64,000 nucleotides of DNA from Neelides folsomi (taxonomy: Eukaryota > Arthropoda > Collembola > Neelipleona > Neelidae): NCBI GenBank assembly GCA_034687125.1, contig JAQGBZ010000074.1:160940-224939 (forward strand), written 5' to 3'. Position numbers and translations under genes: made by a program. Positions 13,471 to 64,000 of this stretch are shown piece after piece (the stretch's first letter is position 1; every line of letters starts with the position of its first letter). Below the pieces are notes generated by a model. That model saw only the letters and a list, made by a program, of their open reading frames with translations. It made no database searches and had not been told where the DNA came from.

Positions 13471-15255
13471 CGGCTGAGTTTTACTTATCCGACTCATATT
13501 TCCGAAAAAATTCCGGCAACTGCCGGCTGCCTTGACGGAAGTTGCCGTCTCATTACAAGAATACAAATTACGGGCTGAGTTTTACTTTTCCGGCCCATAT
13601 TTCCGGCAAATTCCGTTGATTACGGAATTTGCCAAATTTTAAGCAGTTGTCGGAAAGGCAGTTGCCGTAACGGCAATTGCCATAAATCCTAGGGAAAAAT
13701 TTCGACAATTGTCTAAATACGGCAATTTAGGCAATTGCCGTCAAATTTAAATTATTTATATATAATGAATCTTACGAATTTAATATTTTTAATTAACAAA
13801 ATTTCAAAAGTTTTACGGTAATATAGCATAATATTAAAATATATAAAAAACATTAAATCTTATCTCGAAATGAAGGTTCTATTCATTGTTACCAGGCTAA
13901 TTCATAAATACAATTTTTTTAATTTATTTTTACAACAGATAAAATTAATTATATAAACCATTTCTAAAAACGCAAATCTTAATGTTAGATATACATTATT
14001 TAAAAAAACATTTGATTTCATAGAAAAAATTGTGTTTTAAAAATGGTGTTTGTATACAGGAAGATCTAAATGAAGTGGGACTTAGAAATAATTCTAGAAA
14101 TGTGTTATATTCTCCTCTTAAAGAATTAATCCACTCTTCTTACAATTAGATTCAATCATAAGTTTTATAATAATTATAAAATTTGGTATTCTAATTGTGA
14201 AATATCGAATTTGGGAACAAAAGTTTAAGAATTTGGTTTTCTGGGGTCATGAAATAAGATTTAGAAATGTGTATATTTAGTTAAAAAATGCCCGACATGC
14301 CATTACATATAATACAGCATACAAAGTAATCCAAATTTTGCTTCTTTTTTAAATTAATGATTGATTAATAAATGAGACAAACTTTGGACCATCCTGTACA
14401 TTCAGTTTAGGGCAAATATTGGAGACAGGACTATCGACTAGTGGTAAGCTTCAGGGCCATTACTAGCGGACTATTTCTTGCGACATGATTTAAGTTAGGT
14501 TAAGTTAGGGAAGGTATGGTAAGCGGCAGACGCATACCATTTGTCAGGTGTCGGCTTACTTGCGCTTAGGGTTTTTAGTAATCCTAGCGTCGTTGGAACA
14601 AGCCGTTTGCGCTTGAAAGAAACCTTTGTAAGAACTTCCCAAACGTATGCTTGTACTCTCAAATTAAGAAATTAATGAAAGATTTACGGGAAAAGATTTA
14701 AAAAAATTAAACGATATCAAATGTTTTAATGCATTTTTAAAATAATGCTTATCTAAATATAAGACTAGCATTTTTAAAAGAAATGGTTACCTTATTATAA
14801 TGTACTATTAAATTTAGAAAATAATATGGATCAGCATTGATTAGGAAATAGTATACAAGAACTTCATTTTGAACTATTCAACGTTTTTAACATATTTTAA
14901 TATTATACCCTGTTTTTAGAGAAAAACTTGAAATTGCAATATCCGCAAATAATTTACATTGGTATCATGCTAAATTATTTACCGGTATTTGAATTTCCAG
15001 TTTTTCTTTAAAAAAGCAGGATATGATAACTTTTGTTAATTAAAAATATTAAATTCGTAAGGTTCTTTAAAAATAACTTAGGTTTGACGGCAACTGCCTA
15101 ATTACGGCAATTTAGGCAATTGCCTAAATTTTTCCGTAGGATCAACTGCTGCTGCAACTGCTTAAAATTGGGCAGTTGCCGTAATTTGTATTCTTATAAT
15201 GAGACGGCACCGGGCAACTGCCGGAAATATGGGCCTGATAAGTAAAACTCAGTCA
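13471..15255. mobile_element. 1.8-kb foldback element rich in GGCAATTGCC words
   Basis: The left arm, from 13471 (GGCTGAGTTTTACTTATC), matches the right arm read on the minus strand from 15255 (GACTGAGTTTTACTTATC). The match runs with gaps for about 300 bp, to GAATTTAATATTTTTAATTA near 13795 and 15040. ATTATT flanks both ends (13465-13470 and 15256-15261), a likely 6-bp target duplication. The arms are packed with the palindrome GGCAATTGCC (13672, 13730, 15115) and variants GGCAACTGCC and GGCAGTTGCC. The middle has no transposase; it carries an 82-bp mini-element and a GC-richer stretch near 14400-14650 with GTTAGGTTAAGTTAGGG. It lies wholly inside the pogo-like element, so it inserted later. 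Superfamily unknown. Confidence 0.65.
14315..14396. mobile_element. 82-bp TA-flanked mini-element, divergent
   Basis: The unit begins CAGCAT and ends ATCCTG, with TA on both sides (14313-14314 and 14397-14398). The arms share TCCAAA(G)TTTG and a central CTTCTTTTTTAAAT, as in the 77-bp unit at 10580. The left arm has about nine extra bases, so the pairing is imperfect. It lies in the middle of the nested foldback. Confidence 0.4.
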
Positions 15256-15704
15256 ATTATTCTTACGCATCTAATATTGATTTATATCAATACTTCCGAT
15301 ATAATGAACTTCAGTTTTAATTAACGAAATGGTCCGGTCCGTTCAAATTCATTACATACGGAGTCTACTGTACATAATGTTGTATTTTTAATTTTAATTT
15401 CCCCTATTAATACAATTTGTAATAGGTATGCATAATTTACTTATTGTTAGTTTAATGTTGAGTCATGAATAAGACAAAATTAATAATAAATATAAATATA
15501 ATAAGTAAATAATAAAGTATGTATTTATTACAATCGCAATCTAAAGGAAAATTCGCAACTTTAGAATATTGAATATTGGACAATTTTGAAGATACAGAGG
15601 TTTGATGCTGCGTGTGTCGTTGAGGTTTGAGGGTAAACGTCTGATCTGACCAGTTTCTTAGTTCGTTTCAGTTTTTTCATTCAATTTGACTTGACCATTT
15701 TAAA

Positions 15705-15806: not shown

Positions 15807-16086
15807 CATTCTTCAACGCAAGCTTGAAATTGCATTTATTGTGACCTAAAGTAAATAATATTTTTCCACTCATAAATACTTTTAAACGCAAAACGCCCTA
15901 TTATCTGAAAGACGCAATTCAAGTGAGACACATATTTTCATATAATTCTATTTTTAATTTCAAAACAAACCATGGTTTTTGTGCAGTGCCATAAGAACCT
16001 GTGTCTCACTTGAATTGTGTTTTCCAGATATAGGTATACCTACATAAAATATTTATTTAATATACAATCTAATCGGTATGTAAGTA

Positions 16087-16350
16087 CTGTCCAAGTAATG
16101 GTTCTCCGTTGACCTTTTTTCTCTAAAATGGTTTCAAGTAAATACTTAGCAATTCAATGTTAAAAAAACTTTTATGTTATTTGCCTTCGTTACCCTCTTT
16201 TCTGTTTTCTCAAATTAAATAAACATTATTTCATCATATTTAATTCAATAGATTTCTTGTAATCATGCTTTTATAAGATATTTATGTCTTATCTGCGAGG
16301 AAAGAAGGTAATTTTAAAAAAAGGTCAACGGAGAACCATTACTTGGACAA
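16087..16350. mobile_element. TA-flanked inverted-repeat element, family A copy 1 (264 bp)
   Basis: The ends are near-perfect inverted repeats: CTGTCCAAGTAATGGTTCTC at the left, and the same with first base T at the right on the minus strand (20 of the outer 21 bases match). GTTGACCTTTTTT follows each. TA flanks both sides (16085-16086 and 16351-16352), so a Tc1/mariner-type transposase probably moved it. There is no coding capacity. Bases 16155-16329 are identical, in inverted orientation, to 17309-17483 in copy 2, although the outer ends of the two copies differ strongly. Confidence 0.8.
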
Positions 16351-16382
16351 TAAACGTAGGGGCTGATCTTGTTGCCATAAGC

Positions 16383-16903
16383 ATGACCATTTATAGCATC
16401 ATTTCTACAGGGTGTCCCATTATGCACCCAGTTTTCTTAATAAGAACTTTTTTGTTTATTAACGAATATTAATCAAAATTAAATGATAGACTCTTAATAT
16501 ATCAAGCTATAAATGACTAAACTTTATTTTGAGATTTGACCTCCGTTCACCTTAATGTAACACCATAACTAAATCTTCCACAGAGTCAACATGTTCCTAT
16601 TGAGATGTGTAAAAATACGTGCAAGTTGCAGGTCGAAAGTGGCGCTGCATTAAGGTCAACGGATGTCAAATCTCAAAATAAAGTTTAGTCATTTATAGCT
16701 TGATATATTAAGAGTCTATCGTTTAATTTTGATGAATATTCGTTCATAAACAAAAAAGTTCTTCTTGATTAAGAAAACCGGGTACATAATGGGCCACCCT
16801 GTATGTTAAATAACAAAAATTTCTAATTAAATAATTCGAAATAATAATACAGCCCAGTTCAAATCTTGTTATTTAACATAGAAATGATGCTATAAATGGT
16901 CAT
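16383..16903. repeat. 38-bp inverted repeat whose left arm is split by an element
   Basis: The right arm, 16866-16903, reads on the minus strand ATGACCATTTATAGCATC, then ATTTCTATGTTAAATAACAA. The left arm holds the same bases in two parts, 16383-16407 and 16802-16816. The 394-bp element sits between them exactly at the TA, which is duplicated. The right arm is therefore an unoccupied reference for the left. The origin of the older repeat is unknown. Confidence 0.75.
16408..16801. mobile_element. 394-bp mariner-type foldback, TA insertion proven by an empty site
   Basis: The left end is CAGGGTGTCCCATTATGCAC and the right end on the minus strand CAGGGTGGCCCATTATGTAC. The arms continue for about 165 bp with few differences, then a short GC-richer loop. 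TA flanks both sides (16406-16407 and 16802-16803). No protein is encoded. The mirror arm at 16866-16903 carries the same flanking sequence with a single TA and no insert. Confidence 0.85.
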
Positions 16904-16964
16904 ACACCGATGAGATTGTATATAAATTCATAGATTTTAATGAAATATCTGATAGTTTATTTAC

Positions 16965-18597
16965 AAGTGTTTTTGTGAAGGGACGAACTAAATTGAAGAT
17001 GATTCGCACCAGTTTCTTGAAATGTGCGTGTTTACCAAGTTTCCAGGGTGGAGTGAATTAACTGTTAATCCATGAATTGACCAACGTCGGTTAAGTTCAC
17101 AAGCAATTAAAACATGTTGTTGTAGGGATTCAATGAGTAGAAATATCTTCCTGTTTTTGGAGAAAGGTATTCATCGCCAATGTTTTCTCTTGTCATAAAT
17201 GACATTCTAATAAAAATAAATATTAAATACTTTTGTATTATTAAAATAATAATTTAGAATATCTAAAATTTTAATATCGCCTAAGTGCTGGCAAAGTCAT
17301 ATTTCTGTGTTGACCTTTTTTTAAAATTACCTTCTTTCCTCGCAGATAAGACATAAATATCTTATAAAAGCATGATTACAAGAAATCTATTGAATTAAAT
17401 ATGATGAAATAATGTTTATTTAATTTGAGAAAACAGAAAAGAGGGTAACGAAGGCAAATAACATAAAAGTTTTTTTAACATTGATCATTGAATTGCCATG
17501 TGATTTTAGTAGTTGTAGTTACTTGAAGCCAATTTAGAGAAAAAAGGTCAACACAGAAATCTGATTATGCCAGTAAATGACTCAATTGTTTTAGGTTTTT
17601 ATATTATTTAAAATACATACTATAAGTAAATATGCTATACCTGTGTGACTCGGAAGATACGAACAAACTCTCGGTGATTTTGATTAGAATAAAACATCCT
17701 TGAGCAAAGTAGCAAAGTAAAATTGACTTAGATGATTTATTTGGAATGTAGTTTCAATAGTTTCCCTGGATAACAGGAAGTCCATAAACACCAGCATTCA
17801 GAATTAAAATATTCAAACTCCTAAAATATTGTGAATAACTTGTGAAAATGTTATTTTAAGATTGAAAATTTTAAATTTTATGAACGTGCTATCTTAAGAA
17901 CATTTTATTTAATTCGCTACTTGTATTTGAGATTGACTTCAATTGCATAGTTCCTGACTGTTTGTAGGGATGAAAGAATTGATGACCCAAATGACAAATT
18001 CACTTTTGATTCCAGGTCTTACAATCTCGATTTTTTCAATGGCTTCTTTGGTTTTCTTCTCGTCTCTACAAGAAAAAATTACTTCACAGCCCATTAACGC
18101 CAATGATCTTGCAGTCTCAAATCGTATAAAAAATAAAAGAATAAAATTTATTTTAAATGTTTTGCAATAATTTATGGTATTTGAAATAAATTTAAAAATT
18201 TAATCACCAATTCCACAATTGGCCCCTGTAATTAAAGCTACTTGTTTTGAAAGGTCAATCCCTTGAAGAACTTTCAGTTTTCAGCGCTCTTCAATAAGCA
18301 TTAAACAGTTTTTAAAGTCATAAAGGAATTTTTTGTTTCACGAGGAAATGCAAGGCGAGGATCTGAATCTGTCACTTGAATAGAAACCGAATTCTCGTAT
18401 GCTGTGTCTCCTCCTTCGTTTACTTTCATCGTCCATCCAAATGGGAGATCTAAAAAGGATTTTAAACATTTAATGCACATGTTTAGATTTTAAATTGGCA
18501 TGTTTTTAAATGAAATGATTAAATACTAAAACCCTCAGAGACGATTTTTCTTTTTCCTGAACCTGGATGTTCCCAATGTGTCAATTGTATGGAATGA
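16965..18597 (-). pseudogene. WWOX-like (WW domain oxidoreductase) pseudogene, partial
   Basis: Minus-strand exons can be traced at 18597-18533, 18449-18208, 18123-17921, 17820-17641 and 17206-16965, mostly with GT/AG borders and introns of 83-100 bp (434 bp for the last, which holds a transposon). In order they give the WW1 tail (THWEHPGSGKRKIVSE), WW2 (LPFGW ... DPRLAFP), the SDR cofactor loop (LQGIDLSKQVALITGANCGIG), FETARSLALMGCEVIFSCRD, SLNILILNAGVYGLP, IETTFQINHL, VSSESHR and LTVNSLHPGN. This order and the DPRLAF motif are specific to WWOX, a cytosolic or mitochondrial SDR protein that acts as a tumour suppressor in mammals. It is dead: the acceptor at 18124 reads AC instead of AG, exons 18449-18208, 18123-17921, 17820-17641 and 17206-16965 each carry frameshifts or stops, and the catalytic YxxxK site is lost (YNNMF). 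The first exon and the C-terminal exons are absent. Introns remain, so it is a decayed or duplicated gene, not a processed copy. Confidence 0.85.
17288..17573. mobile_element. TA-flanked inverted-repeat element, family A copy 2 (286 bp)
   Basis: The ends are CTGGCAAAGTCATATTTCTG and, on the minus strand, CTGGCATAATCAGATTTCTG, each followed by TGTTGACCTTTTTT (18 of the outer 21 bases match). TA follows the right end (17574-17575); the left flank is TG, perhaps a mutated TA. It lies inverted relative to copy 1, inside the 434-bp intron between the last two traceable exons of the WWOX pseudogene. It has an extra GATCAAT beside the shared 175-bp core. Confidence 0.8.
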
Positions 18598-20084: not shown

Positions 20085-23000
20085 TTAAGACTTGGTCTCA
20101 ATCTTCTCTCCAGAAATGATAGCGGTTTGATCTGGCGGGGCCGACCATCGACGTCGTTTCGGACTGCATGGTCGATCGTTCTCATCCATCATTTTTTTAA
20201 CCGACATGGGAGAAGGTGGAGGCAACATTTTGAAATCCGCTGTAATCGTCGGTGGCGGAAGTGAAAGGACCGCAGGCCGTTTCCTCTGAGTCTTTATGGC
20301 AGGCTTCATAGAATTGGAATTATTTGAACTCCCAGGGCTCGCTTTGTTCCCTTTGGGCGACGAAAGAATTGATGAATTTTTCCTCCCTTTGGCTCCTTTC
20401 TCAACTCCTGTTGATTTGGGAATTCCCGCCGTTATCCCGCCGATGCTCCTCATGAGAGTAATGCAAATGTCACCAACAGCCAATTGAGAACATTGGAGTT
20501 GCAGATTCTTCTCAGTGTTGAGGGGTGAGCTCGAGGACCAACCGCGTCCCAATATAAAAAAAGGTTGTTCAGGTGTTGCTTCAATGACAACCTGTGAAAA
20601 AATTAGAAAGTAATTAGAAAATGCTATATGACAAGTTTATTTGTTTTGTATTTAAACAATTTTCACAACTATAGCATGCCTCATTCACATTCAATCTTTA
20701 CGTGAGTTTGAACAAACCGCTTAATTATTTCCAGCGATACGATTTTAGTTAAACGTTACTTTCAATTGTAGTATAGCATATGAAATGAATTATTTTATAA
20801 TTTAGAATAGAATAGATTTAAAAAATAAAATTCTTAAACAAAGTTAAATTAACCGAATATACTATAAGTTAAATGTTTAAAGATTGAAATTCTTTAAAAG
20901 ATTTAATTCAAATCTTTTTCTTGTAAAGGCTTTTATATATTTTGAATTTATCTTTGCATTAATACAACTAAAAGTAACAACAAATTAAATTCGTATCGCT
21001 GGAAATAATTACGCGGTTTGTTCAAACTCACGTAAAGATTAAATGTGAATGAGGTAAATTACAAATTAGCGAGCATCTATAGGTTCGAAAAATCATATGT
21101 GCGGCCTAGGAAACGCTTGTGCAAGTTACCATGTAAGCCCCATCATGAGCATTTTCAATATTATTTTAGCGGTTCATTCAAACTCATGGGTAAAGAAATT
21201 TAACTACATATCTAGGTATATAATATGATATATATTCAAATAATTAGGAAATTTTATAATTCTACCAATAATTAGTTTAATTATTCAGTTATGATATTAC
21301 AGATAGTAATAAAATTGTACAAACCTGATGCTTTGGAGATCCAATGGACAGTGTGACTTTGCTTAAATTGATCCCATTATCAACGTGGATTGAGAGGACA
21401 GTGCAATGTACTATTCGAATTGAGTCAACCAAGGCGGCGGCTGCATTGTGAAAGTCCTCCGTACGGAGATCCTCCACAGGACGAAGTTCTCCAGAAGTGA
21501 GTTGAATGAGCGATCCCTTTTTGAATGCTTCAATAAATGGCATCTTCTCTACAGGTACTGGCCCGCTTGTTCCATTCTTGACAACCTTCAGTGAGCTCGG
21601 CGTTGTCGAAGCTGATGGTAAAAGCGGCGATGACGGGGCGAAAGTGGGAACCGACGGTTGTTTGAAACATCCGTTCTGAGGGTTAGTTCCACTTAGGTAC
21701 TTGTTTGATTCTCCATTACTTTCCTTGTGGTTCATGGGAGGTGGAAGGGCAAAGTTCCACTCAATGCGAGGCCTTTTCGGAATCGGCGGTGGCAAATTTG
21801 ACCCCGGAGAGAGAGAAACTACATATTTAGATCCAGGTGAACTCACCCTGTTCGAATCCACAAGTATCCCCTGAGGCGGGTAGAGGCTTAGCAAACTCGG
21901 ACTCCCCCGCCGTTCATTTGAGAAATTGGTTGGGCTTTGACTTCGATCGTTGGGTGTTTCCGGTGACCGGACCAAAATCCGATGTTTCAAACTTCCCTCT
22001 TTTCCAAAAGGAACTTTCCCCACTGCTCCCTCATTTCCCTCTTCTTTGATCTCAAATTCGTGGTTCAAATTTTCTTCAACATTGTTGTTTTTTTCTCTAT
22101 TTGAATTTGACATTGAGAACCGCGGGACATGAGGCGGGTAGGTTCCAGATTTCAAATTAATTTTTCCATTACCAATTACAAGATTACTACTACTTGAGCT
22201 TGATGTAACACAAATGGGATTGTTGGTGTAATTCACCCTAGGCAGTTGGCTATTTAGAAAAGCATGATTGTTCGTCACTTGCACGTAGTTGTTGTTCCGT
22301 GTGTAGCGCTCTTCAATCATTTTCTGCTGTTGAAATTTACCCGTCGGTACTGGTGGGCTTAAATGATGAAGATGCTGCGGCGGGGACAGGTGGGGCAAAT
22401 AAGTTCCCACTCGGCTTGGTGGCGAGGGATCGCTCCTCATTGGCGACACCATTCCAGCCGTGAGATTTGAATGGAAATTTTCCAGGTACGAGGCCGCGGC
22501 CGCGGCTGAGTAGCTTGTAGAAAACAAATGCTGATGATATGGCATGGCTGCATAGAATCCAGGGCTCAAGCCATGACTATGTGGGGATGGTGGGGTCGGA
22601 ATATGAAATCCCCCTCCGCCGGAGTATAATCGCGAAGAGGTCAAGCCGTCACCAACAGGGATCTGGGCTGAGTAAGAATTTCCACTGTTACCAACAGGGC
22701 TCTGGGACTTAGGCGAGGCCGAAGAGCCGGGTGAGGGGCTCGAACAAGGAATCGGCATTGAAGAACGCCCGGAATAATTTGAACTACCTTCGGAAGGGTG
22801 GACCGAAGTATAGATAGGAGAATGGGCATCTTTTCGTGGGCTCCCTGACCCGTACAAGTGGTGATGCTGATTTTGCTGGTGTTGTTGGTGTAAATGATGT
22901 TGTTGGATTTGTTGCTGTTGCAATTGTTGTTGCTGGTGGTGATGTAAGTGATGCTTTTGATGGGTGTAAGGAACTGAGCGGGTTTTGTGAATGCCGTTCA

Positions 23001-23220
23001 TGTGCTGTTCTCCAGAGGTTCCATTTAAAATTGACCGCCGCTTCCCGCCGTCCGAAGCCAAAGGGCGGGATGATATAGGGAGGGAAGGGACTAAAAATTT
23101 CTGGGAATCGGCGGTCCGCCCAAGTCCCGTCATCCCTACGCTTGATTTGATGTGCGGGAGGGGGATGTGTGGGTGGGAGTGCTGGTTGCTCCCTCCGTTT
23201 AACGAACTCGTTGAGATCAT
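20085..23220 (-). CDS. Ataxin-1-like protein with AXH domain (two coding exons)
   Basis: Coding exons are 23220-21325 and 20591-20085, joined in phase 0 across a 733-bp GT-AG intron, giving 800 residues, close to human ataxin-1 (about 815). The start is the ATG at 23220: an in-frame TAA lies upstream in the same exon and no earlier in-frame ATG exists. A His/Gln-rich tract covers residues about 87-121, followed by a long Ser/Pro-rich region. The AXH domain spans about 561-680 (MPFIEAFKKGSLIQL, GELRPVEDLRTEDF, then EQPFFILGRGWSS and LAVGDICITL in exon 2). The C-terminal KRRRWSAP, with Ser about 782, matches the nuclear-localisation, U2AF-ligand and 14-3-3-binding motif around Ser776 of human ataxin-1. 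In animals AXH proteins bind RNA and transcriptional repressors such as Capicua; that role here is inferred from homology. The intron position within AXH resembles the human two-coding-exon layout. Expression is not shown. Confidence 0.93.
20679..21054. mobile_element. 376-bp foldback element in the AXH-splitting intron
   Basis: CCTCATTCACATTCAATCTT at 20679 continues through GTGAGTTTGAACAAACCGC and ATTTCCAGCGATACGA. It is mirrored from 21054 on the minus strand with two mismatches in about 64 bases. A weaker match extends the arms to about 100 bp. The loop is AT-rich without a coding frame. No clear target duplication is seen. In the pre-mRNA the two arms would pair into a long hairpin between the exons of the ataxin-1-like gene. 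Confidence 0.75.
21169..21195. repeat. Diverged partial copy of the intronic foldback arm
   Basis: GCGGTTCATTCAAACTCATG, followed by GGTAAAG, resembles the right arm GCGGTTTGTTCAAACTCACG, followed by TAAAG, in the same orientation, 115 bp outside it. It suggests an older or partial copy of the same element in the intron. Confidence 0.4.
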
Positions 23221-23228
23221 TTCTTCAT
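23217..23228 (-). promoter_or_regulatory. Four-codon upstream frame overlapping the ataxin-1-like start
   Basis: In the leader, ATG AAG AAA TGA (23228-23217) runs in another frame; its TGA overlaps the main ATG at 23220 as ATGA. Such an overlap could allow termination-reinitiation or lower translation. That effect is inference. Confidence 0.4.
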
Positions 23229-23252
23229 TCACACGACCAGCTATTTAAATTC
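23221..23252 (-). promoter_or_regulatory. 5' UTR tail with upstream splice acceptor
   Basis: The minus strand shows a pyrimidine-rich CTTTTCTTATTTTCCAG ending at 23253, then a 32-base leader before the ATG at 23220. This implies at least one non-coding exon upstream (higher coordinates). The leader has an in-frame TAA that fixes the coding start. Confidence 0.6.
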
Positions 23253-28760: not shown

Positions 28761-29464
28761 AAACATTGCACTGTGTTGAGTTTTGAGATGATCATGTAAT
28801 TAAATTCATTTTTGAAATTTTACTACGATTCTTTGGACTAAATCTTCTTAAAGGCCACACACACACTTATTTTCCTCATTTTAATATATAATGACAAGAC
28901 AAATTTTTAAAACAATATCTAACATAAAATCAGTGTGGACGTGAAACGGTTTATTTAAATTTATATCTTCTACATAGTAAAAGTATTAGTGACAATGATT
29001 ATTTACAATATTTAAATACTTATTAATTTTTTATATTGTATGTATATGTATGTACCTATGTATTATATTTGTTGTAAGACATATTTGTAGATATTAAATA
29101 GGTAGGTATTTACATAGCTAACAAGAATGAGCTTTGTGATTCCAGTATCATCAGGTTAAAGTTAATTTGGAGTTCAGAGGGAGAGCAAATAGAGTTTAAT
29201 AATCTCTATCTGGAGATAAATGAGTACCTATGTTATTTATGTGTAAATGGGGTTTTCTTTTACAGCCCTCACATGATCGTCACATGCAAATGTGAGAATT
29301 ATTGAGGAATGTGAATCCGCATAGATTAAAGAGATTCTATTCATTCATCTCCTGTACAATTTAAGCTTAGAGTTCAATTCTGCTCATAAATACACACAAT
29401 GTTAGGTAATATAAGAGTAAAAGAGAGGAAAATTAAAATTAGCATATTTTCACTATATTTTATG

Positions 29465-29557
29465 ATAGATTTCTTATAGTCATGCTTTTATATATTTATC
29501 TGCGAGGAAAAACTGTAATTTTAAAAAAAAGGTCGACGCGATCCCTGACTTTCACAG
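29465..29557. mobile_element. Family A remnant (copy 3), one end only
   Basis: ATAGATTTCTTATAGTCATG and TCTGCGAGGAAAAACTGTAA match the interior of copies 1 and 2 with small deletions. The outer end on the minus strand is CTGTGAAAGTCAGGGATCGC, then GTCGACCTTTTTT, with TA just outside (29558-29559). The other half is missing. This is a third, different outer end on the same interior. Confidence 0.65.
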
Positions 29558-33114: not shown

Positions 33115-36100
33115 GACGACGCGAGAGGTGAGATACAAATATCTATGTACAGATATATGGTAAATATTACTCTCTGAAAACGTAGAAATCAAATAGATGT
33201 TTTTCTTGTCCCAAGATAAAGAAACGAAGACATTTAATAAGAGAGATAGAGACGAAATAAAAAATGCAAGAGATCAAAGTGTCTTACAACCTCATAATAT
33301 TTCCACCATGTCACATCCGCTTGTACTCTGCCCCTTCTTAAAAAGTAATCCGGAGATAAAAATGTAAATTGGAGTGACATTTATAAATGACGAGGACATT
33401 CGCCTATTGTATCAATGCCAATGGCCATTCAGCTCACTTTGGCTGTCCTTGTATATAAGAAATCTCCTATAGTCCATCAAATCCGTACATAAAAACTATG
33501 GGTATATCAGTACTATATGTACAAAATCTCATTCAAAAAGGGAATCTGAAAATGTGTTCTTTAATATTCAAAATTTCCCGGTATTGATAAGAGTGAAATT
33601 ACTCTCCATTTGAATAGCATAGAGGAAACATGAAAGGGTCTTTGAATATGGGAAATATATGCATGATGTATTCAGCTTCAATTCCTCCTTTGACTCTCAA
33701 TGAGACTTTGGAATTGAACGAGGAGAAAACGGCATTCGAATTATGCTAGATTTTCTCATTCACTTCTTACACTTTCTTTCTCTTTATGATTCGCTTATGC
33801 TTTTCTTATAGGTAATATATAAGTATATACTTAATATGATTCATTCACTTTTCTTAGTTTTTCACTCCAGTATCGATATGGAAAATAAATATAATATAAT
33901 GTACATAATGTAATGGACTATGTAGACAAATAGTCAGGGAGGAAGTTACGGGTAGTCACATTGGAGAGATAAGCCCAAGATGAATATCCCTTTTAATATG
34001 TTTATTTCTCCTTATGAAATAAATATGAATGAATTTAGGAAAATCAGCTTAAGAAATCTCTTACATTTCCTTCAGAATGACTCATACACTTCTGTTCCCA
34101 TTTTCGGTATTATACTCCAGCGACAAAATTTACAGATTATTTGAACCCCATGCTCTTTCAAAATGACTCTAGATCTAACTTATTTATAATTCCCTGCCAG
34201 TACAAGAGATTCCATAACTTTTCAAAATTACAACCTATGGTATTTATTATTTGAACAAATATTTTTATAATTTGGAAATTTTTAAATCGCAAATTTTAAT
34301 ATAAATTAATTCTGCATATTACCAATATGGATACTTAAATAAATATATAAACAGGTATGTATATTACATACTGAATAGACTGAGAAAACCTGAGCTTCGG
34401 CATATTTTTGATGAATGGCATAGATAGGTCGATTGACTTTTGATGAAGATGGATGACCATTTAAATGGGGAAATATTTGGGTGGTCAATAGGAGTGATGA
34501 GTTCTGTACCACCGTTAGGGTCCCAGACGAGAGACCCATGAAGGAGAAATTGGGTGAGAACCATGAGGAAAAGTGATGAACCATGTATGGCCTGTCGTCT
34601 TTTATCTTATCCTCCGCTCCTGAGGACAGATCCACACAGACGGAAGAAAGGTCAACCAAGGCAATTCCCTGGGACAGACAAGTTAATGGAAAAACAGTAT
34701 GTTTGGCGTCACAGGCGTGGCTCCCTCACAAACAACACATTTACTATAATTTATAATACAATCGAGATACACCAAATACGAAAGTACAACTAACAATTCC
34801 AATATTATTATGGTACCAAAGGTCTGAATAAATAACTTTTGACCATTTTCAAACCTCGTGTTAGAATTCAAGAAGGTGATGATAACAATGAACAGAGTAT
34901 GCCTTAAGTGAGTACATATTTTAAGGTACAGATACATAAGTAAGTATAGAGTTAAATGTCTTAAACTCATAAATAACAAATATGAAGTGGAGCATGTCAC
35001 TCTTCTGTCTTTACAAAATAATGGAAATGTTTAGATCAAGAGAGAATGGAAATGGAAGTTGATACAAAAGCTGATTCCTTGGGGTTATCTCCAGTTCGCT
35101 TATTGACGTTCAGTCGGGTGCCGAGCCCATTAGTAATTAAACAAAGATTACTCACTCAGCTATTGACATTATATATGTACATCCTCACTAAATATTGATC
35201 AATCCTCAAATAAGTAAAAAAACATTTAAACTCTCATCCTTCATTTCATTTCATTTATGTTGCAGAAAAATGAATTAAATACCTAAGGTTTGATACATAT
35301 TATAATAATTAACATGTATGATATGTATAAATTCATTGAAGAATAATACTCACTCACTAGTCACTACTTTCAAATAATAAAATTCCCCAATATATGCATT
35401 ATACTTACTTTAATTTTAATTATACTTTATGTATGTATTGTATTAATTGCCAAATTATTTAAATCGAATTGATTCTATTAATTTTTAAATAATTACAGCA
35501 AAAACATTAACATGAATACAGAGTACGAATTAATTTGCCGTAAATTCACACAGGTAAAATAAAATATGCAATTGCATTTAGTGTAAATGATAATTCAATT
35601 CAGCTTTGTATACTCTTTTTCACTTTTTCTTTCCGAGTAAAATTATATTCATTTAATAATAATGTCTTAATTCAAGATTATTCTCATTTCGCTCAATTTC
35701 ATCAACAATTTTTCCTTTCTGATCAGTATGTAATTTCTGTATAATTAATATTAAATTTATTAAGATTATTTTTATTGTGAGCTAGCATAAATAAAACCAT
35801 ACATGTATGTGTAGGTTCGTACATATTAAAATACATACCGTACATTATAATTGTTTTAAGTCTTACATATTATGTGCATATGTTAATAGGTATATAGGTA
35901 AATACATAATTTTTATTATTATACAGATATTTACTGTGTTGCATTATCGGACCTCCCCTAACCTTCACATATACCAGAACCATGATGTTTACGTTTACAC
36001 ATACACAACAAATGGTTCTCTCTCCAAAAAGAGTCCGGGAGTTTGAGAAATTATGTGGAGCGAAGGGGAAAAAGTCGGATGATCCAATGGAGGAATGTTG

Positions 36101-45100: not shown

Positions 45101-47731
45101 ATGAAACTTCACTATCAACTACAGGCAATATGAAACTTCAATATAATAATACTTCAATACAAAACTTGAATGTTTCAAGGCTTAAAGGTAAGTTGGTAAT
45201 AATAAAAAGGTGTGCGAGGGTTCTCCTCCTCTCCCATTCAATCACTGATATGATTTGATGAAGAGAAAAACTCATTTGAAAGAACTTTGAACACGAAAAT
45301 TTTTAATTTACAACCCACGTGATTCGAAGTGTTAATGGGCTTTTGTATTATTTTCCTCGTTCTTTATTCATCCTCAGTCTCAGACCTCATAAGTAATAAG
45401 GAGGAGAAAAGATTCTGACACACCGAGTTTGAGAGTTCTTTCATTAAGAACATTCTCACATATTTAACAGTCGGAGTTTAAATGATGACTTAAACGCCTC
45501 TTCATGATCGCCTTTTCCCATTTCAAAGGAGCGAAGGAGAGAAAAAAGTGAAAGAGAATTAATATGAACCATTTCCTTGCATGTCAGGTTCGAATCAAAT
45601 TGAGATCCTAAATTCCTTTTCTTATTCAACCCAATCTCACATAATTGCACCACTCTTGAGTAAAACCTAGTTATACCAACCCTGCATACTATAGGTACAA
45701 ACAGGTACATACTTAATGTAATACATAATTATATTATAAAACATTTATCAGATGCATTATGTTAACCAACATTCAGTATTGCGACCAGTCTATTGGTAAT
45801 TAACACCCAGTAATCGGTTGAAATTAAAATTAAAATAGGTAATTATATTCAAATTATCCATACAACATGATGAGTTTGTAAAACAATTTAAACTACATAA
45901 CTCTTATATGTAAATCATTGTGTTACTATACTATTTTTTATACGTTGTAAGGTAATATAATATAACTTAAAAATGGAACTATCGTATGTAAAAAAAAGAA
46001 TGAAAGTCTGAATGAAAAGAAGATGACGTTCGCACTTCTTTACAATTGAACTTCAAACATGTTATCAATACTGCCGAGATAAATATGTATCTACAGTAGT
46101 TTGATAAATACATAACACATCTTTTGCTTTCTTCGCCTTAAGAAGTCGAATTTCTTCTAATGATTTTTTAACTTACATTCTCACTTGTGAAAATTCAAGG
46201 AGAGAAAGGGACCTAAAACTTGGAATAAAACCCCGCATGTAGCAATTTACTTGAAATCGAGAAAAATGATACTGCTACAGATACAATGCACCCCATTGTC
46301 CAAATTGAATATGATTGTAAAGTTCAAAAGGTCCAAATGACATTCTAATAACCGAAGAAATGATTCCAAGTAAACCTTTGAAAGATCACAATAAGAAAAG
46401 GGATCGATCCATTACTTATCCCCTATCTCCCATTCCCTTCCAAATTGCATTATCCTCTTTTCATTTTACACCTGACCAAGAAAAGTTAAAAGGTATATCC
46501 AATAAGTAAACTACCTTGTTATGTTTATACAATAATACAGGTACAATATAATCCCATGTATTTTACGTTTAGTATGGAGTCAATATAAGGGTCAATAATA
46601 AGAGATATAGGAGATGTGAAGTTTTGGACGTAAGGGTGTCTCAGGGGCGTCAAAGGACCGTAGAGGATGTGAAGATGAGAAGTGGCTCTTTGGCTGAAGT
46701 ACCATACATTGAGCTGGCTGGGTTAACTACTCCAAGTTCCTGGAATCTTTGGAGATTTGAAGGTGGGCGGAGGAGTCACTTTTCCATCCCTCACAAGGGA
46801 TCCAAGTTGGTCTTTGAGGGCCCCTTTGTTCCCCTTTTGACCATCCCCATTAAGAATGAAAGGAAGGCCTTCGTGGCAGACAAAACATTAAAGAGGAACC
46901 CCGGGGTGAGTGGCTCCAGTGAACACGCCTTCTCTCCTTACACGAGGTTCGGGTTCCCGTTCAAGGGACCCTTTGCCCCGCTAATAAGACCCATGTTCTT
47001 CCATACACATAATATATAAATAGTAATACAATTCATATATACGTACATGCTATATTACCCATTAGAAAATATAGCATGATATATCTATAAATATTATATT
47101 CAAAATATAAAGATACATAAAATACTTACATTTAGTTATATGAGCACAATATAAAATTAAATACAAAATGGTATAATACTTATCTATGGTATAACCAAGT
47201 GGTAAATATTTTCTTGCTATACTTTTCGTAGTGGCCCTTCTGAGTAAAGATCTAAATGTGAGAAATACGAGCTACGTTACGAGGAAATTCTTTCCCAAAA
47301 CTCTTCTCTGCTCCCACCCTCGTCATCCTTTCAAAAATTCCTCCGACGGGCCCTTAACTCATTTGTTGTACATTCTCTATCTCTCTTCATCAAGTTCCGA
47401 GTCTTAAATAACTTTCAACCTCCTTTGACTCACTCTCTTAGACTCAACATTACTAAGGACGAATTTTACTACCAACCAACTTACACATGTATTCCTTTCT
47501 CTGAACGTGTAAATGTACAACTCTAAAGGCAATTATGAACACTTAGCTAATTCCCTCACATCATTCTAATTTGACACGTATGAGGCCGTTTCCGCTCTTC
47601 AAGTTCCCATATCGGTCTCCTCTTACACTGTCCTCACATTTCCCTCCCATTTACTCTATTTTTACGTTTGTTTAACAACTATTAACATTCTATTTATTAT
47701 ACTATTTAGGCACTAAATAACAATAATAACG
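33115..47731. other. Gene desert with GC-richer islands
   Basis: No gene is recognised in about 14.6 kb. GC-richer islands lie near 34430-34690, 36000-36180, 36620-36760, 37240-37480, 38690-38940, 39230-39480, 40300-40760, 42460-42900, 43200-43340, 44800-45120 and 46600-47010. The last holds an open frame (46624-47019) without a domain. The word GGGCCGACGT occurs at 36626-36635 and 37351-37360. The intervening DNA is AT-rich with TATGTA words. Confidence 0.45.
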
Positions 47732-47733
47732 TA

Positions 47734-48424
47734 CAGTCGCTTTCACAGCGATAGCCTATGTTTAATTTTTCCAATAATTAAGCCCATTCCTGTCTTACAA
47801 AGTTGAGATTTACATTATATATGTATTTTTATCTCCTAAGATCATTTTTGTTATCCATTTTTGAATTTTGAGTCGCACGTGTCTACAAATGCACAATGAC
47901 ACTTTTGATTATTATACATTCGTTCAAAGCCATAGGACACGTATTAACTCCGAGAAACCCATTTTCTCCTACTTTTCCTTTGTTATTTATTAAAATTATA
48001 ATGAATTTGCAAAAATAACCCATAATTTTGATAATTTTGCAATCCTAGTGATCTTAAGGTCTCAATGAGTCAATTGGTGATTTTCCATCGTTGGTCATTA
48101 TTGACCCTTACGCCATTCTACGTTTGGAACGAATTTTATATTGAAATTTGATTTTTATAGTTGAAATGATCCATATGGAACACAATTCAAAAATTTTCAT
48201 CTTCAAATTCGAATTGGTGGTCGTAAAAGACAAAGGTGTTCTATGGCTTTGAACAATTGCATAATAAGCAAAAAGTGTCATGCGACTCAAAATTCAAAAA
48301 TGGATAACAAAAATGATCTTAGGAGATAAAAATACATATATATTGTAAATCTCAACTTTGTAAGACAGGAATGGGCTTAATTATTGGAAAAATTAAACAT
48401 GGGCTATGGCTGTGAAAGCGAGTG
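47734..48424. mobile_element. 691-bp TA-flanked foldback element
   Basis: Ends are CAGTCGCTTTCACAG and, on the minus strand, CACTCGCTTTCACAG, with TA outside each (47732-47733 and 48425-48426). The outer arms, about 145 bp, differ at only a handful of positions. They then continue with gaps to GTTCAAAGCCATAG, giving arms of over 200 bp. No coding frame of note. High arm identity suggests recent origin or arm homogenisation. Confidence 0.8.
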
Positions 48425-48426
48425 TA

Positions 48427-50481
48427 CTTAAATGATCAAATGATCCCAGAGGCGAGTCTAGTCATCTCTATTATTAAAATATTTATATGTTAATTTTAGA
48501 CTCCATAAAACCGGGTTCCATTCATTCACATCGTAAACATTTTGTACACATTTATATTGAATACATAATAATGTATACAAGATACATAAACATAAATAGG
48601 ATACATAGTGAAAATGCATCCTATACAATATTCCCTTATAAATGCTTTTACATGTTTATAAATGAAATGAAAAAGAATATTGAATCAAAGATCTCTCCTT
48701 ATTGTATTTCACTGCAGGGAAGTGTAAGAAGACCCGATAGATATTTTCTACTGATTAGGAAACCCATTCTAGAAAAGAAGGGTTTGTTCATTTTACTCTC
48801 AAAGTCTCTTCCTGTGAATGTTGATATGGAAAAGACCCTTTTTCTTTTATGATACGGCTCCAATGATGGTGGAACGTTTGTCTATAGTTAAAAAAGGACC
48901 TCGGAATAATAATCAACCTCAACTTGACTGTACTTTTACCACCATTACTTTTACGCACTTTAAAGTACCCAATACTCCTATGAATATGCGCTTTTACAAA
49001 GAAATTTGTAAATTAATATGGAGCTAAATATACGTGAATACATATACAATATGACACATAATTTAATAGTCACTTAAGTGTGCTTAATATAATACAATAT
49101 ATTGCACTCTACACTACTAAATACTAACTGACCTTTTATTTTAACCAATACATTTCCGCGTCTCGCCCTTTCTTTACAAGTCCAACCATCGGAATATATG
49201 GAATAAGAGCAGCACAGGGAGACATTGTGAGAGAATTGAGTGAAAAGACCCTTACAATCTTCCATTTTATAAAGGTGACCTCCTCCATTCTTCTCACCAA
49301 ATGAGTCACTATTGAGACTTTTGGGGAGATATAATGGATATCGTGGGAGTTTGATATACTTCAGGTCATTTACGTTTACTACGCATAGCACAATGTAAAT
49401 TGGAAATGTTTGTACCCGATACACCTCCCAAAAATATTTACACACTTATCGTTAGTATAGACAGTCCATGCATATCTTTTGCACTTCTCATACACATCTT
49501 ATATCTGTATGTTTCAATATATATTTGGTATATAGGTATTTTCTGCTTTAGGGAAATGAAAAAAGACCTGAGACCGCATTTGAACCTTCATAATGGAAGG
49601 CTGGAACACAAAGTGAGTCCATTTCTTCACACAAAGGCCCATTTTCAATTTCCCTTCATGATTGGGCCAGCGGAGACTTCTTGTAGTATTTTGTATTTAT
49701 GGACACCAAAGCGGTTTCCATTTATTGAGGGAGAGAGAAAGGCCCAGACGAACAGAGGTCCTTTCCAAGAAAGTCAAGAAGACCCTTTTGCCAGTCCTTT
49801 AGGGACTCAACTTCAACAAATATCATTTATTACTCCGATGAGATATGGCAAAATGGGATCCAGAAAACACTCAAAATCGTTTATAAAAACAAACACTCAT
49901 TTGGTCTATACCTCTATACGGTCTTACATAGGAGAGAATTACTATCATATGAATCTTCATCTTGTATTAAGAATAAGAACATACCTAAGTATCTAAGTAT
50001 TTAGTCTTACTAACATAGAGTAGTACTTTGACTACTTTGTATAATACGAATGTAAATATTCAGTCTGTCAAATAAATATAAACAACATTCAAAAGTCAGC
50101 AAAGTATTCAGATACTTTTCAGTGAGTATAGAGAATTGATATTGATATTCATCAAGGAGCTTATGCATCTCATGTTTCCACTTCCATTATTGCAACCATA
50201 TGGAAAACTGTTCACAAAAACACACATAAGACATTTAAAAGCCCATTACTCTTTCCATTTTTACAAACACTCGAGATGAATGGGTTCGTTAATAAATATA
50301 TTACAATATATGAGCCAATGACGTAATTTGTGTATTCTATGAATGAGTGAAACGGGGATTTGTAACATTAAGAAATAAGGATAATATACCTACACAATGG
50401 TTAAATCTAAATGGAGAATACTAAAATAATAAGGGCGTTTGCTTATTTGGTATTCCGCAACAAGATTAAAATTCTCGAATA
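48427..50481. other. Gene-free stretch
   Basis: Contains GC-richer islands near 48680-48800, 49180-49330 and 49550-49870. A 198-codon open frame (49400-49996) starts at TTG, is rich in hydrophobic and Tyr residues early, and has no recognisable domain; I do not call it a gene. Confidence 0.4.
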
Positions 50482-58600: not shown

Positions 58601-60540
58601 TCGACCTTTGTATACTCAACATGCTAGCAAAGCTATGTATTTAAATATAACCATTTACTAAATGTTAGCCTTGTTATTTCTTATTACCAAAATACATAAT
58701 ATATGTAGTTTGATATGTTATTCTTCTATGAACCACAGTAATATGTACACAAAGTGAACTATATTTATTGATAGTACGATGTATTACAAATACTACATAA
58801 TATACATCTCTATATCTCTAACTCTTTCTATTTTTTTTACTACCAAATCGCATGTGGAGGTTCGGAGTTCAGATTTACTCAAATCTTCAATGAAGACTCA
58901 CGCCATTCTACGATCCGAGAAATGGGCAATATCTCACCCTTCATTGGATGTAAGAAGTAAAAGCAGTGGGACACGAAGTTTAAATAAGAGTCGTCTGGCA
59001 AGCCTCACTAACTTTTTCCTTGGCCAAACCTCCGAGCCATTAAACTCAACTACCATCATTACTCAGAGGAAATCTCTTTAAGCTCTCCCTTCACACGGCG
59101 CTTCCTCCTCTCCCCCGCGTATAAGCAAAAGGAGAGATGGAGGAGAAAAGAGAAAGATAAACGAAAAATATGGTAACTAATCCCTTCCATTACAACCCCA
59201 TACATTTACCAGTCCATGTATAAATAAAAGAATTTAATCCATAACTTACTATTCCGACTTCACTTCACATATACTACCATACATATTTATTTAACATTAA
59301 CTCGCAAGTTTCTAGTGGCCCTTAAAGCGCTGATAAATAGGTACATAATAATATTATGTACAATATAATACTAACCCTTTCACAACGAGGGCATGAGAGT
59401 ATCTTCAATATAAATATGTAAGTACCTATTACATAAATGCTACTTATACATACATCCTTTGTGTGAATAATATATGGCTGCTCTTAACTTCCCGCTTTTT
59501 AATACATAATTTTGATTTACATAATTTTAAATGTGATACTGATAGAACGCACAATTTTATATGGCTTTAATTTGATAGTTTTTTGTATGTAGAAATATGT
59601 ATAAGTTTCTACAATGAAAATTCTTTGATTAAGATTGAATTTATCAGGAGCTATTTTTGGTTAAAATGTTAATTTACATAAGTTTAGGGATTGTTGTTAA
59701 ACGTTTAAGTAGAATTACAGCATTGAAACTCGATTTTTCCTATGTTTCCTATCTTAATGCATTACATGTGCTTTTCCTCCATTGCAAACTAAAAGTGTCA
59801 TCCTGTATAGTATTATGTACAGATATTTCAATTTTTACTCAAAGAATGACGCAAATTGAACGTGAGTGATTTTAAGCGATGAAAATATGAGAAATAAATT
59901 CAAAGTTCTCCCTGGGTGGGGAAAGGTGAGGGAAGTTGTCTCGGACCTCTCACAATCTCGATATAATATATTATATTCTTCTACCTCTGTATATGGATTT
60001 CATTATAAAAGAGGGAAATGAAGTGGAAGTGTTTAGCTTCAAGGATTACTCACAACTTGAAAGGTATTCCGACGACGACCAACTTCCTCTTCTGTCATTT
60101 ACACGACTCGGATCGAAAGTAAAATGTAATACATTTCACCCGACTTCGGATCCAATCACCTCACCCGTGGCAACCCGCCGACATGACAACGGCTTGAGAC
60201 GATCTTTTATGACATACACATAAGTTATTACTTCGCCTTCAACTTAGATGGATTCTCTATATTTGTACTTAATATTTTCTCTTTAATAACTTTCTCTTCG
60301 TTTTTTTTCCAGCCCTAAAAGCCCAAGGCCTCCTTTTGAAATTCAACAAAATATCTCATTCGCTCATATTAAATATTTTAAAAATTCAATGTACTCATTT
60401 ATTTAACAATGTACATAATTGTATGTATGTAAAATATAATAACATTACATATGAAAAACAATTTGACAAATGGTATAAAATATGTATAACATTAGATGTT
60501 ACTGGCAAGTAAAGTAAAATATGTTATAGTAGTAAATAAA
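55631..60540. other. Gene-free stretch
   Basis: GC-richer islands lie near 55790-56000, 57240-57530, 58840-59070 and 59930-60190. An 88-codon frame at 55787-56053 and a 143-codon minus frame at 56839-57270 have no recognisable domain. Confidence 0.4.
57986..58034. repeat. Perfect 22-bp hairpin with 5-base loop
   Basis: CATTTACTCTAAAACTTTAC plus AT (57986-58007) is followed by GTGGT and then the exact reverse complement (58013-58034). The stem ends abruptly at both sides. Confidence 0.75.
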
Positions 60541-60542
60541 TA

Positions 60543-61000
60543 CATCTGTCCGGGACTCGATGTGTCCGGGGGGCAATCCTGAGATTTTAAAAAAGGTGTA
60601 CGGGTCTCAAAAGGTTACCAGGTCAGTACAGTATAGGAACAATGTTTAAAAATATGGAACGTTTTATTTGATCAATAATTAACTCTATTTCTTTGATATC
60701 ATTTAACTACATTGTTTTAAGTCAACAATGTTCTGAAGGAAAGGTTTTCCTTCAAAAGTATAGAGAAGATGAGAATTATAAAGTTATTATTCCAAGTTAT
60801 AAACTTAATGACAACGAAGTTATTTCAGACAGTGAGGAAAGTGAGAATTCAGGTGAAGATTCTTCAATTGCTTCTGACTAAAATTAAATCTTAAATTATT
60901 TTCGAAAACATTTTTAAATGTGTCCGGGACTCGATATGTGTCCGGGTCCGATTTGTGTCCGGGGGTCACTGTCATAATTATAAAAGGTGTCCGGGGGACA
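60543..61000. repeat. Unit bounded by TGTCCGGG direct repeats
   Basis: TGTCCGGG occurs exactly at 60547, 60563, 60921, 60939, 60956 and 60988, with a one-base variant (TGTACGGG) at 60597, all on the plus strand. The left pair and the right set share TGTCCGGGACTCGAT followed by a second TGTCCGGG. The outermost bases ATCTGTCC and GGACAGAT form a short inverted repeat. Between the clusters lies an open frame ending in an acidic tail. It may be a non-autonomous or decayed transposon; no known family is recognised. Confidence 0.5.
60672..60881 (+). pseudogene. Unrecognised C-terminal-type frame with acidic Ser tail
   Basis: An open frame between TGA at 60669 and TAA at 60879 has no early ATG, so it would be the end of a longer protein or a last exon. 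It reads CSEGKVFLQKYREDENYKV and then VISDSEESENSGEDSSIASD at its end. A Ser/Asp/Glu tail is seen on several transposases and chromatin proteins, but I cannot assign it. It sits exactly between the two TGTCCGGG clusters. Confidence 0.3.
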
Positions 61001-62933
61001 GATATCGGTCTTTTACGGTAAGTGCGTATTATTTATATATTAATATTACAAATACTTAATAGTATTAGATAATGTTTTCGAAAGATATGTAAAAAGGTTT
61101 TTTTCTCTTGTAAAAGAATGAATTATCTTAATTAAGGGAATATGGACTTGGCAGCCTCACAGGGCAAAGTGAGCAAGTGAGAGGATGAATGGGACCCAAG
61201 TTATGTGAATGAATGGAGGACCGTGTGGAATTTGAGATCGGTTTGAAGATTAGTTCCCCGGATTTTGGCATGTGTGGGCAGGGGCTGAGAGATTCCTCCG
61301 TGTGAAGATGTCAAGTGGGGAGAAGTTTCGAAGGGCTCAAAGTCGAATGAGTTGAGCGGAATTCTGAGATTTTTCCAAGAAAATCCCACTCAATCAAATC
61401 CTTTTTTCTGAATATTTTCCCCACTTTCTCCCATAAACTTATAAAATTACTTATAAATTGTATATTAATAAATGTACTTACATATTTGTGTAACTTAAAT
61501 CCTTTGTCAAATAAACTCAATGTCACATCAACATTTTATACCTCTTACAATTGTAGTACATCTTCATTAAAAATACAACAAACAACAACAATTAAACCCT
61601 ACAATAATAAATAGATATAGCAAATCATGCATATTACCATATACATATTACCTGTATATGCTACAATTTATATACGTATGTAATGTATATATTTATATGT
61701 GTACATACATAGTATTTTAAAAATACCATAAGTTAAAATTGGCTTTAAATCCTTCTAAATAACTATGCAAGAAAACAAAAAAGCTAACAATGTGTGGATT
61801 ATTTATAAAAGCAGATTTATATCACCACATGCTTTAGTTTCTGACGTTCTCGGAAAAAAGTACAAATGGAATATCAAAAGGTTATAAGTTAATTCCCAAT
61901 CCTGATAAACTGAAGAAACAATTTAAAATTGAATTTTTAAAATATTTTATAAATACCCAATTCGTAAGGCTTAAAATTTCTAAATACGCGTACTAACGAT
62001 AAGTATACTAATGTTTTTATCCATATTGCATAGTATGACATTTATTACACATATAGTATCATAGTATAAAATGATACATAGACGATGTAGATTTTTATTA
62101 TATATGTAGAATACTTATTTAGTAATTATTACTTTAAAATATATTTAAATAATAATATAAGCATTGAATACATAAATGCTAAAATAACAATTTTTTATAA
62201 AAATGTTTGTGGTATGGACCTTATATGGTAGTATTATTAGGTCGGGTCTATGAATTTAAGAGTTTCTCACAAAGCATAGATATGAATCTAGATAGGGAGT
62301 ATTCGTAAAAGATGAATATTTAAAGAGGAAGGAAGTCAAAGGATGGGTGTTGAGTGGCAGGAGGTTGGAAGTTCTTGAAAGCAATTCCATCGCTTCTGGA
62401 TAGGACCATATGACTTTTCAAAATTGTCATATTTGCCATATTTTTCCTCTGACAACCCGTGGGTGGATTCCCGTAAAGTCGTTTAACTCCATCATCAATT
62501 TTTCATCTTTCCCTTTCTCCCGTTGAACTCCATTAAGAATTGATAACCAAGCCCTATATAATATAAATACAATATAACATGGATTTCTCGCTATTAAACT
62601 CAGCGTACGGATAGATGCCAAAAAGTTCTCAGCGGTAAAAATTCAAATCTAAATTAGAGGGAATGTTTGTTTTGTTCATACAAAAGAACCCATTACCTCA
62701 AATTTTATAATTTAAATCTTAAATTCACTATTAATTTTAATAATTTGAAATTGAGGCTCCTGATTCATTTCATACTATTAAACTCACACGACTTTCTTCA
62801 ATTTTAACTAGGATTGCATCATTATAACTAAAAAAGGTAAGTGATATTAAGATATTACAGTGTTTGTATATGTTATTCTTTAAATTAAATAAAATATAAC
62901 ATTAAAATTAACATTTACGTTTTATAATTAAGA
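61001..62933. other. AT-rich stretch before the Tc1/mariner transposase
   Basis: No gene is recognised. Islands lie near 61130-61380 and 62220-62480. The last 150 bp probably belong to the transposon; AAAAAGGTAAGTG at about 62832-62844 is a strong splice-donor match, but no matching acceptor is clear. CTCACACGAC near 62786 faintly resembles the inverse of the window end, so the left terminal repeat may be there. Confidence 0.35.
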
Positions 62934-63938
62934 ATGGCAAGGGGCCCGACACTTTCACCGGAAGAGCGCCGTGAAATCCGAATTTTCCATGAAAGTGGAT
63001 TGAACCAAAGGAGGATTGCGGCTAGAATTCATCGTTCACAAGGTATTGTGAAGAATGTTCTCAAAATGAGGGAAGATTACGACTTAAAAAGGACAAGAGG
63101 AAGAAATATTCTTGTTACTTCAAGAGAAAGCAGCCGAATTCTCCGTGCTGCCAGCAATTCAACCCTTTCACTGCCCCAAATCAAAGCAACTTGTGATAGT
63201 GCACGTTCAAAAACAACGATTTGGAAAATTTTGCATAAATCAAGACACATCAAAAGAAGAAGAATGGAGAAGAGATTACCTTTAAAACCAAGAAATATGG
63301 CTGAAAGGTTTACATGGGCTAATGAGCGGAGATTATGGCGGGACGAGTGAAACCAAGTCATCTTTACTGACGAAAAAATGTGGAGTTTGGATGGGCCAAA
63401 TGGCTACAAAGAATACTGGCATGATTCGCGAAAAGAAGAACTCACCTGTAAGAAACGACATACCGGTGGAGGAAAGATTATGGTTTGGGGTGGCATCGGA
63501 AGAAATGGCAAGACACCTTTAATCTTTGTTCGGGGAAAAATGGAATCCCGAGACTACCAACAAGTTCTTGAAGAAGGATTGTTCCCGACAGCAAACGAAA
63601 TCGGAGGGGAAGGGTGGATTCTTCAACAAGATAACTGCAGAGTCCATGTTTCAGCCCCAACACGCCAATGGTTAGCTCAACATGGCATCGGCAACCAGAG
63701 GATTCTTCGATGGCCCTCATGTTCACCGGACTTAAACATCATTGAGGATATCTGGGCTTATTTGACACACCAAGTTTATGGAGGAGCAAAGCAATATGAC
63801 AACAAGAGAGCGCTCCAACGTGCGGTTCAGGAGGCATGGGACAATCTTCCTCAGGATTTCATAAATACTTTATTTAACTTGGTTCCAGATAGGATTTTAG
63901 AAGTGATAATTATACGGGGAGGTAACATTAAGCATTAA
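62934..63938 (+). pseudogene. Tc1/mariner transposase, DD37E spacing, one internal stop
   Basis: A single frame of 334 codons from the ATG at 62934 to the stop at 63938 is broken once by TGA at 63348-63350 (codon 139), four codons into RDE*NQVIFTDEK. The N-terminus is a paired-type helix-turn-helix (LSPEERREIRIFHESGLNQR, then RRIAARIHRS), followed by a second helical region. The catalytic triad is D146 (FTDEK), D233 (QQDNCRVH) and E271 (SPDLNIIEDIW), with 37 residues between the last two, so DD37E rather than the DD34E of classic Tc1. IMVWGGI is also typical. The protein would cut and paste DNA at TA. Apart from the stop the frame is clean, so inactivation is recent, or the stop is a sequencing error, or the parts are made separately. 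Confidence 0.88.
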
Positions 63939-64000
63939 TGATGAGATAAGACTTTTAAATTTGTCAATTTACTTTAAATTAATCAACTTTGTCAAGTGAG
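62934..64000 (+). mobile_element. Tc1/mariner-type element, right end cut by window
   Basis: The transposase frame is followed by 62 bases of AT-rich DNA ending CTTTGTCAAGTGAG at the window edge. The right terminal repeat is therefore incomplete or absent, and the left one is not certain. Total length cannot be given. Confidence 0.6.

Follow-up and report, generated by a model that had tools for sequence, protein, structure and literature searches.

Two short MITE-like elements in the window (the whole stretch of DNA analysed, 64,000 nucleotides) lie 937 bp apart in opposite orientation and share a block of 176 bp without a single difference; on both sides of this block the copies differ, and their ends, well matched within each copy, are of different types. 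The explanation that we prefer, at about an even chance of being right, is that related elements of different end type arrived in separate insertions and that one of them later received part of its inverted neighbor's sequence. The observation is real and tidy, and it is explainable by known processes. The fact that needs an explanation is the identical block of this one inverted pair, not the matched ends. A preliminary description of the locus took the pattern to imply a coordinated change of both ends; no such change is required, because one element of one end type supplies both matching ends, and separate insertion of copies from a family with several end types thus gives matched ends within each copy.

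Both elements (Table 1) are MITE-like in being short (264 and 286 bp), in carrying TIRs, and in overlapping no open reading frame (ORF) of at least 80 aa. Each TIR comprises an outer part of 21 bp and an inner part of 13 bp, the latter being invariant across the four ends of the complete copies 1 and 2 and showing one change in copy 3. Within a copy, the outer parts match at 20/21 (copy 1) and 18/21 (copy 2) positions, exactly as first counted, and in both copies the match breaks off abruptly beyond the inner 13 bp. The outer arms start with CTG in four ends and with TTG in one. TA stands at either border of copy 1, whereas the borders of copy 2 carry TG and TA, which makes an exact TA repeat in 1/2 copies; the target duplication of the elements is probably TA. 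End-type scans, run on the window only, found two complete copies and one partial copy (copy 3); besides these, they gave one weak match (33722-33749; 9/28 mismatches), which was taken as chance. Rfam gave 0 matches at the gathering threshold.

Table 1. Coordinates of the three element copies and their parts, as positions of the window.
Feature	Position	Strand	Length	Remarks
Copy 1, inverted-repeat element	16087..16350	+	264 bp	End type 1 = CTGTCCAAGTAATGGTTCTCC + GTTGACCTTTTTT
Copy 1, left TIR	16087..16120	+	34 bp	33/34 vs copy 1 right TIR
Copy 1, right TIR	16317..16350	-	34 bp	
Copy 1, left interior beyond the identical block	16108..16153	+		First 13 bp = inner TIR
Identical block, copy 1	16154..16329	+	176 bp	= 17309-17484 inverted
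Spacer separating copies 1 and 2	16351..17287	.	937 bp	
Copy 2, inverted-repeat element	17288..17573	-	286 bp	End type 2 = CTGGCAWARTCAKATTTCTGT + GTTGACCTTTTTT
Copy 2, TIR (right end in copy 1 orientation)	17288..17321	+		31/34 vs other copy 2 TIR
Identical block, copy 2	17309..17484	-	176 bp	
Copy 2, TIR (left end in copy 1 orientation)	17540..17573	-	34 bp	
Copy 3, fragment of a related element (only its right end found)	29431..29557	+		End type 3 = CTGTGAAAGTCAGGGATCGC, inner part GTCGACCTTTTTT

Positions 16155-16329 agree at 175/175 sites with 17309-17483 read as the reverse complement, as the preliminary description had stated; one further base matches on the left and extends the block to 176 bp (16154-16329 = 17309-17484 inverted), while the block statistics were computed with 175 bp. 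Between copies, the outer 21-bp ends match at 11/21 (left with left), 13/21 (right with right), 14/21 (copy 1 left with copy 2 right), and 10/21 (copy 1 right with copy 2 left) positions; the earlier figure of about 13 therefore conveyed the poor match correctly but fits the right-hand pair only. The block itself is exact, but divergence is not limited to the ends, as had been supposed: the left interior at 16108-16141 differs at 2/34 bases, and between these bases and the block, copy 1 has 13 bp against 35 bp in copy 2 (12 against 34 with the 176-bp block). In total, 20 differences were counted in 251 ungapped columns, all of them in the 76 columns outside the block. In 200,000 random placements of 20 differences over 251 columns, the longest difference-free run was 124 (a count that omits the 13-versus-35-bp stretch, which needs gaps to align); chance is excluded as the source of block identity beside differing ends.

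Differences are spread very unevenly over the elements. The outer ends (18/42 different) and the left interior (2/34) both depart from the block (0/175), with Fisher values of 4e-15 and 0.026, respectively, and the outer ends also depart from the left interior (Fisher, 0.0002; 0.009 without the 13 inner TIR bases). The block's left border coincides with no TIR border; it lies within the element and adjoins the 13-versus-35-bp stretch. The right border falls at the boundary between the inner and outer TIR parts. That boundary is visible at the left end as well: 32/34 sites are alike on its inner side, and 11/21 on its outer side. The block is a sharply bordered tract of identity between copies that have otherwise diverged, as gene conversion leaves, with differences flanking the 176 bp on both sides. 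Within-copy TIR mismatches number 4 over 68 site pairs, against 0 in the 175-bp block (P = 0.006 for all four falling in the TIRs, assuming TIRs that were perfect at insertion and with slightly overlapping sets, since 13 inner bp of one TIR per copy lie inside the block).

One of the routes first proposed, a core exchanged between elements whose ends differ, fits; it is the class of explanation that we prefer, in the form of copying between neighbors. The family would hold several end types, with a conserved inner 13-bp TIR part and a variable outer part of about 21 bp, and two copies of different end type would have inserted separately, about 0.9 kb apart and in opposite orientation. A tract of about 176 bp, running from the element interior to the inner part of one TIR, would later have been copied from one copy onto the other, whether through gene conversion or through template switching in a hairpin that the two inverted copies can form, and the outer ends and the left interior, beyond the tract, would retain older differences. 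Template switching between inverted-repeat arms is described as homogenizing the arms in the Saccharomyces cerevisiae lineage (PMC8604942).

A block without any difference, beside TIR mismatches (4/68) and left-interior differences (Fisher, 0.026), suggests that its identity dates from after the insertions. A left border inside the element, beside the 13-versus-35-bp stretch, is what a conversion tract of arbitrary extent would show, and the close inverted arrangement (979 bp between blocks) likewise counts in favor of copying. Against copying count the block's right border at the inner/outer TIR boundary, because an end swap predicts such a border, the short tract, the dependence of the dating on TIRs that were perfect at insertion, and the two complete copies known (n = 2). 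A length of 176 bp is short for efficient gene conversion. Moreover, the outer ends (18/42) and the left interior (2/34) both lie outside the tract and differ in divergence, so that block copying alone leaves the end-type divergence unexplained; the end of copy 3, which has also diverged more than its interior, counts against this reading as well. It is likely that, in addition, ends in this family once diverged faster or were exchanged.

Copy 3 had been described as a third end type on the same interior. The third end type stands, its 20-bp end showing one gap and 6 to 8 mismatches when set against each of the other four ends, but the interior is related to the core rather than the same (92/106 aligned bases identical, 14 mismatches, plus 14 gap positions). 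Compared with the right ends of copies 1 and 2 and the left ends of copies 1 and 2, the end of copy 3 is more diverged than its interior (Fisher, 0.043, 0.043, 0.089, and 0.008, respectively, in four comparisons that share data). End-type distances are similar (7 to 11 of 21 between copies 1 and 2; for copy 3, 6 to 8 in 20 plus a gap) at an interior divergence of 0% (copies 1 and 2) and at one of 13% of aligned bases (copy 3). Judged by its sequence, with the interior different at 14/106 bases and the end at 6 to 8/20 plus a gap, copy 3 may represent the unconverted state.

The 34-bp TIRs, the lack of long ORFs, and the probable TA target duplications suggest a Tc1/mariner-type transposase acting in trans on copies 1 and 2. 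A Tc3-like transposase was found at 62934-63938 as two ORFs in the same frame, one matching HTH (62934-63350) and the other DDE_3 (63378-63938; both Pfam). Whole-window scans, allowing up to 9, 9, and 8 mismatches for end types 1, 2, and 3, found none of these ends near the transposase, shortly beyond which the window ends, and 0 of the 17 pairs of inverted-repeat arms listed for 60500-64000 flank it on both sides. Within the window, neither matching ends nearby nor an enclosing inverted-repeat pair marks it as the partner of the elements, for which it had been considered. The conserved right-end motif had 0 matches in virus and in prokaryote contig collections, which say little here, and a second interior motif had 0 matches in the virus contig collection.

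The surroundings contain further inverted repeats. A foldback of 398 bp in the spacer (16406-16803; ends TACAGGGTG(T/G)CCCATTATG) is 80% self-complementary over 403 aligned columns and is nested in a 23-bp exact inverted repeat (16383-16405/16881-16903), itself between copies 1 and 2. The motif AAGGTCAACGGA is present in both copy 1 TIRs (16105-16116 and 16321-16332), exactly in one arm of this foldback (16652-16663), and with one mismatch in the other (16542-16553). Just before copy 1 lies a small palindromic element (15902-16030) with 31-bp arms (15902-15932/16000-16030), and farther upstream lies a long diverged inverted repeat (13557-15264; 190/263 aligned columns) that encloses a palindrome (14901-15028). 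An inverted repeat at 47727-48430, with arms of about 150 bp (146/151 aligned columns identical), is perhaps another recent TIR element. Out of 46 ORFs of at least 80 aa, 17 were searched against Pfam and 4 matched: the two transposase ORFs and a pair of ORFs on the minus strand (20085-20552 and 21289-23232), each of which matches one part of the AXH (ataxin-1/HBP1) domain; the ORFs at 20085-23232 are probably exons of an ataxin-1-like gene. The G+C content of the window is about 33% (base counts), and no tRNA was found in it (bacterial setting); together with the AXH matches, this gives the window the look of nuclear DNA from an animal, probably an insect.

The main and serious rival to copying between neighbors, a tentative but real possibility, places the exchange before insertion. 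The core would have moved between source elements with different ends, by recombination or by interrupted gap repair with template switching, and the chimera would then have transposed; each end type may have its own transposase. The right border of the block, at the inner/outer TIR boundary, speaks for this order of events, the more so as the boundary is seen independently at the left end (32/34 inside versus 11/21 outside), and there are precedents in Galileo copies with the TIRs of one subfamily and the center of another (PMC3573991) and in coral CMITEs with different TIRs on a common internal region (PMC2872659). However, the 4/68 TIR mismatches and 2/34 left-interior differences, against none in the block, suggest identity gained after insertion, and no end of type 1, 2, or 3 lies beside the sole transposase seen in the window. 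Rather doubtful is the idea that the outer TIR halves are exchangeable cassettes, with both outer ends replaced together, the inner TIR and core kept, and one core carried by several transposases in turn.

It is unlikely that assembly or polishing turned two similar interiors identical: short-read polishing can homogenize nearby repeats, but here the outer ends and left interior remain distinct, with 20 differences in 76 ungapped columns outside the block. Hairpin-templated correction within each element, which would keep its ends alike and let them drift jointly over an interior that stays as it is, is about as unlikely. The within-copy matches of 33/34 and 31/34, which stop abruptly, are what such correction would give, but a common origin of both ends suffices for them, and the 0/175 interior differences would be left unexplained.

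Very improbable is a reading in which the real element is just the GTTGACC...GGTCAAC unit, inserted into preexisting palindromic sites, with the outer arms being target sequence. The constancy of the inner 13 bp (4/4 complete-copy ends, with one change in copy 3) and surroundings rich in palindromes, some of them nested, are compatible with it, but the inner borders have no direct repeat in 2/2 copies, a test that an element making no target duplication would escape, against TA at the outer borders in 1/2. Between copies 1 and 2, the outer arms also resemble each other more than unrelated sequences would, matching at 10, 11, 13, and 14 of 21 positions (binomial, 0.04, 0.015, 0.001, and 0.0002, uncorrected for multiple tests). 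The earlier proposal that a core was inserted into existing hairpins is disfavored on both counts. The similarity ends at about the element borders, and for this reason the idea that the whole locus was duplicated in inverted form was rejected.

If the core tract was copied by conversion, this pair illustrates clearly, on a small scale, how inverted copies rewrite each other, which can mislead the dating of transposons by interior divergence. If the ends are truly exchangeable, the family would show how a non-coding element can change its transposase and keep its body.

Among the papers listed by literature searches, which could not search by sequence, none was seen to report this element. Tc1/mariner-derived MITEs are short, lack long ORFs, and have TIRs and TA flanks. 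Copies 1 and 2 resemble them in length, in the lack of long ORFs, and in the TIRs, and partly in the TA flanks (exact in 1/2); they differ in that no transposase with matching ends was identified in the window. In Galileo of Drosophila mojavensis, one central region occurs with the TIRs of three subfamilies, which the authors explain by ectopic recombination and conversion, both breakpoints lying within the element (PMC3573991). The likeness is one middle with different ends; the difference is that Galileo belongs to the P superfamily, with TIRs of hundreds of base pairs and a 7-bp target duplication, whereas copies 1 and 2 have 34-bp TIRs and probably TA. In the CMITE families of Acropora corals, the interior is more conserved between families than the TIRs, and several end types occur per interior (PMC2872659). 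A conserved interior with different TIRs is common to both cases, but CMITEs are piggyBac-like, insert at TTAA, and are about 100 bp long with TIRs of 13 to 14 bp, whereas here the identical stretch belongs to one close inverted pair. The combination of the same middle with different ends thus has published precedents in Galileo and the CMITEs and is not a new kind.
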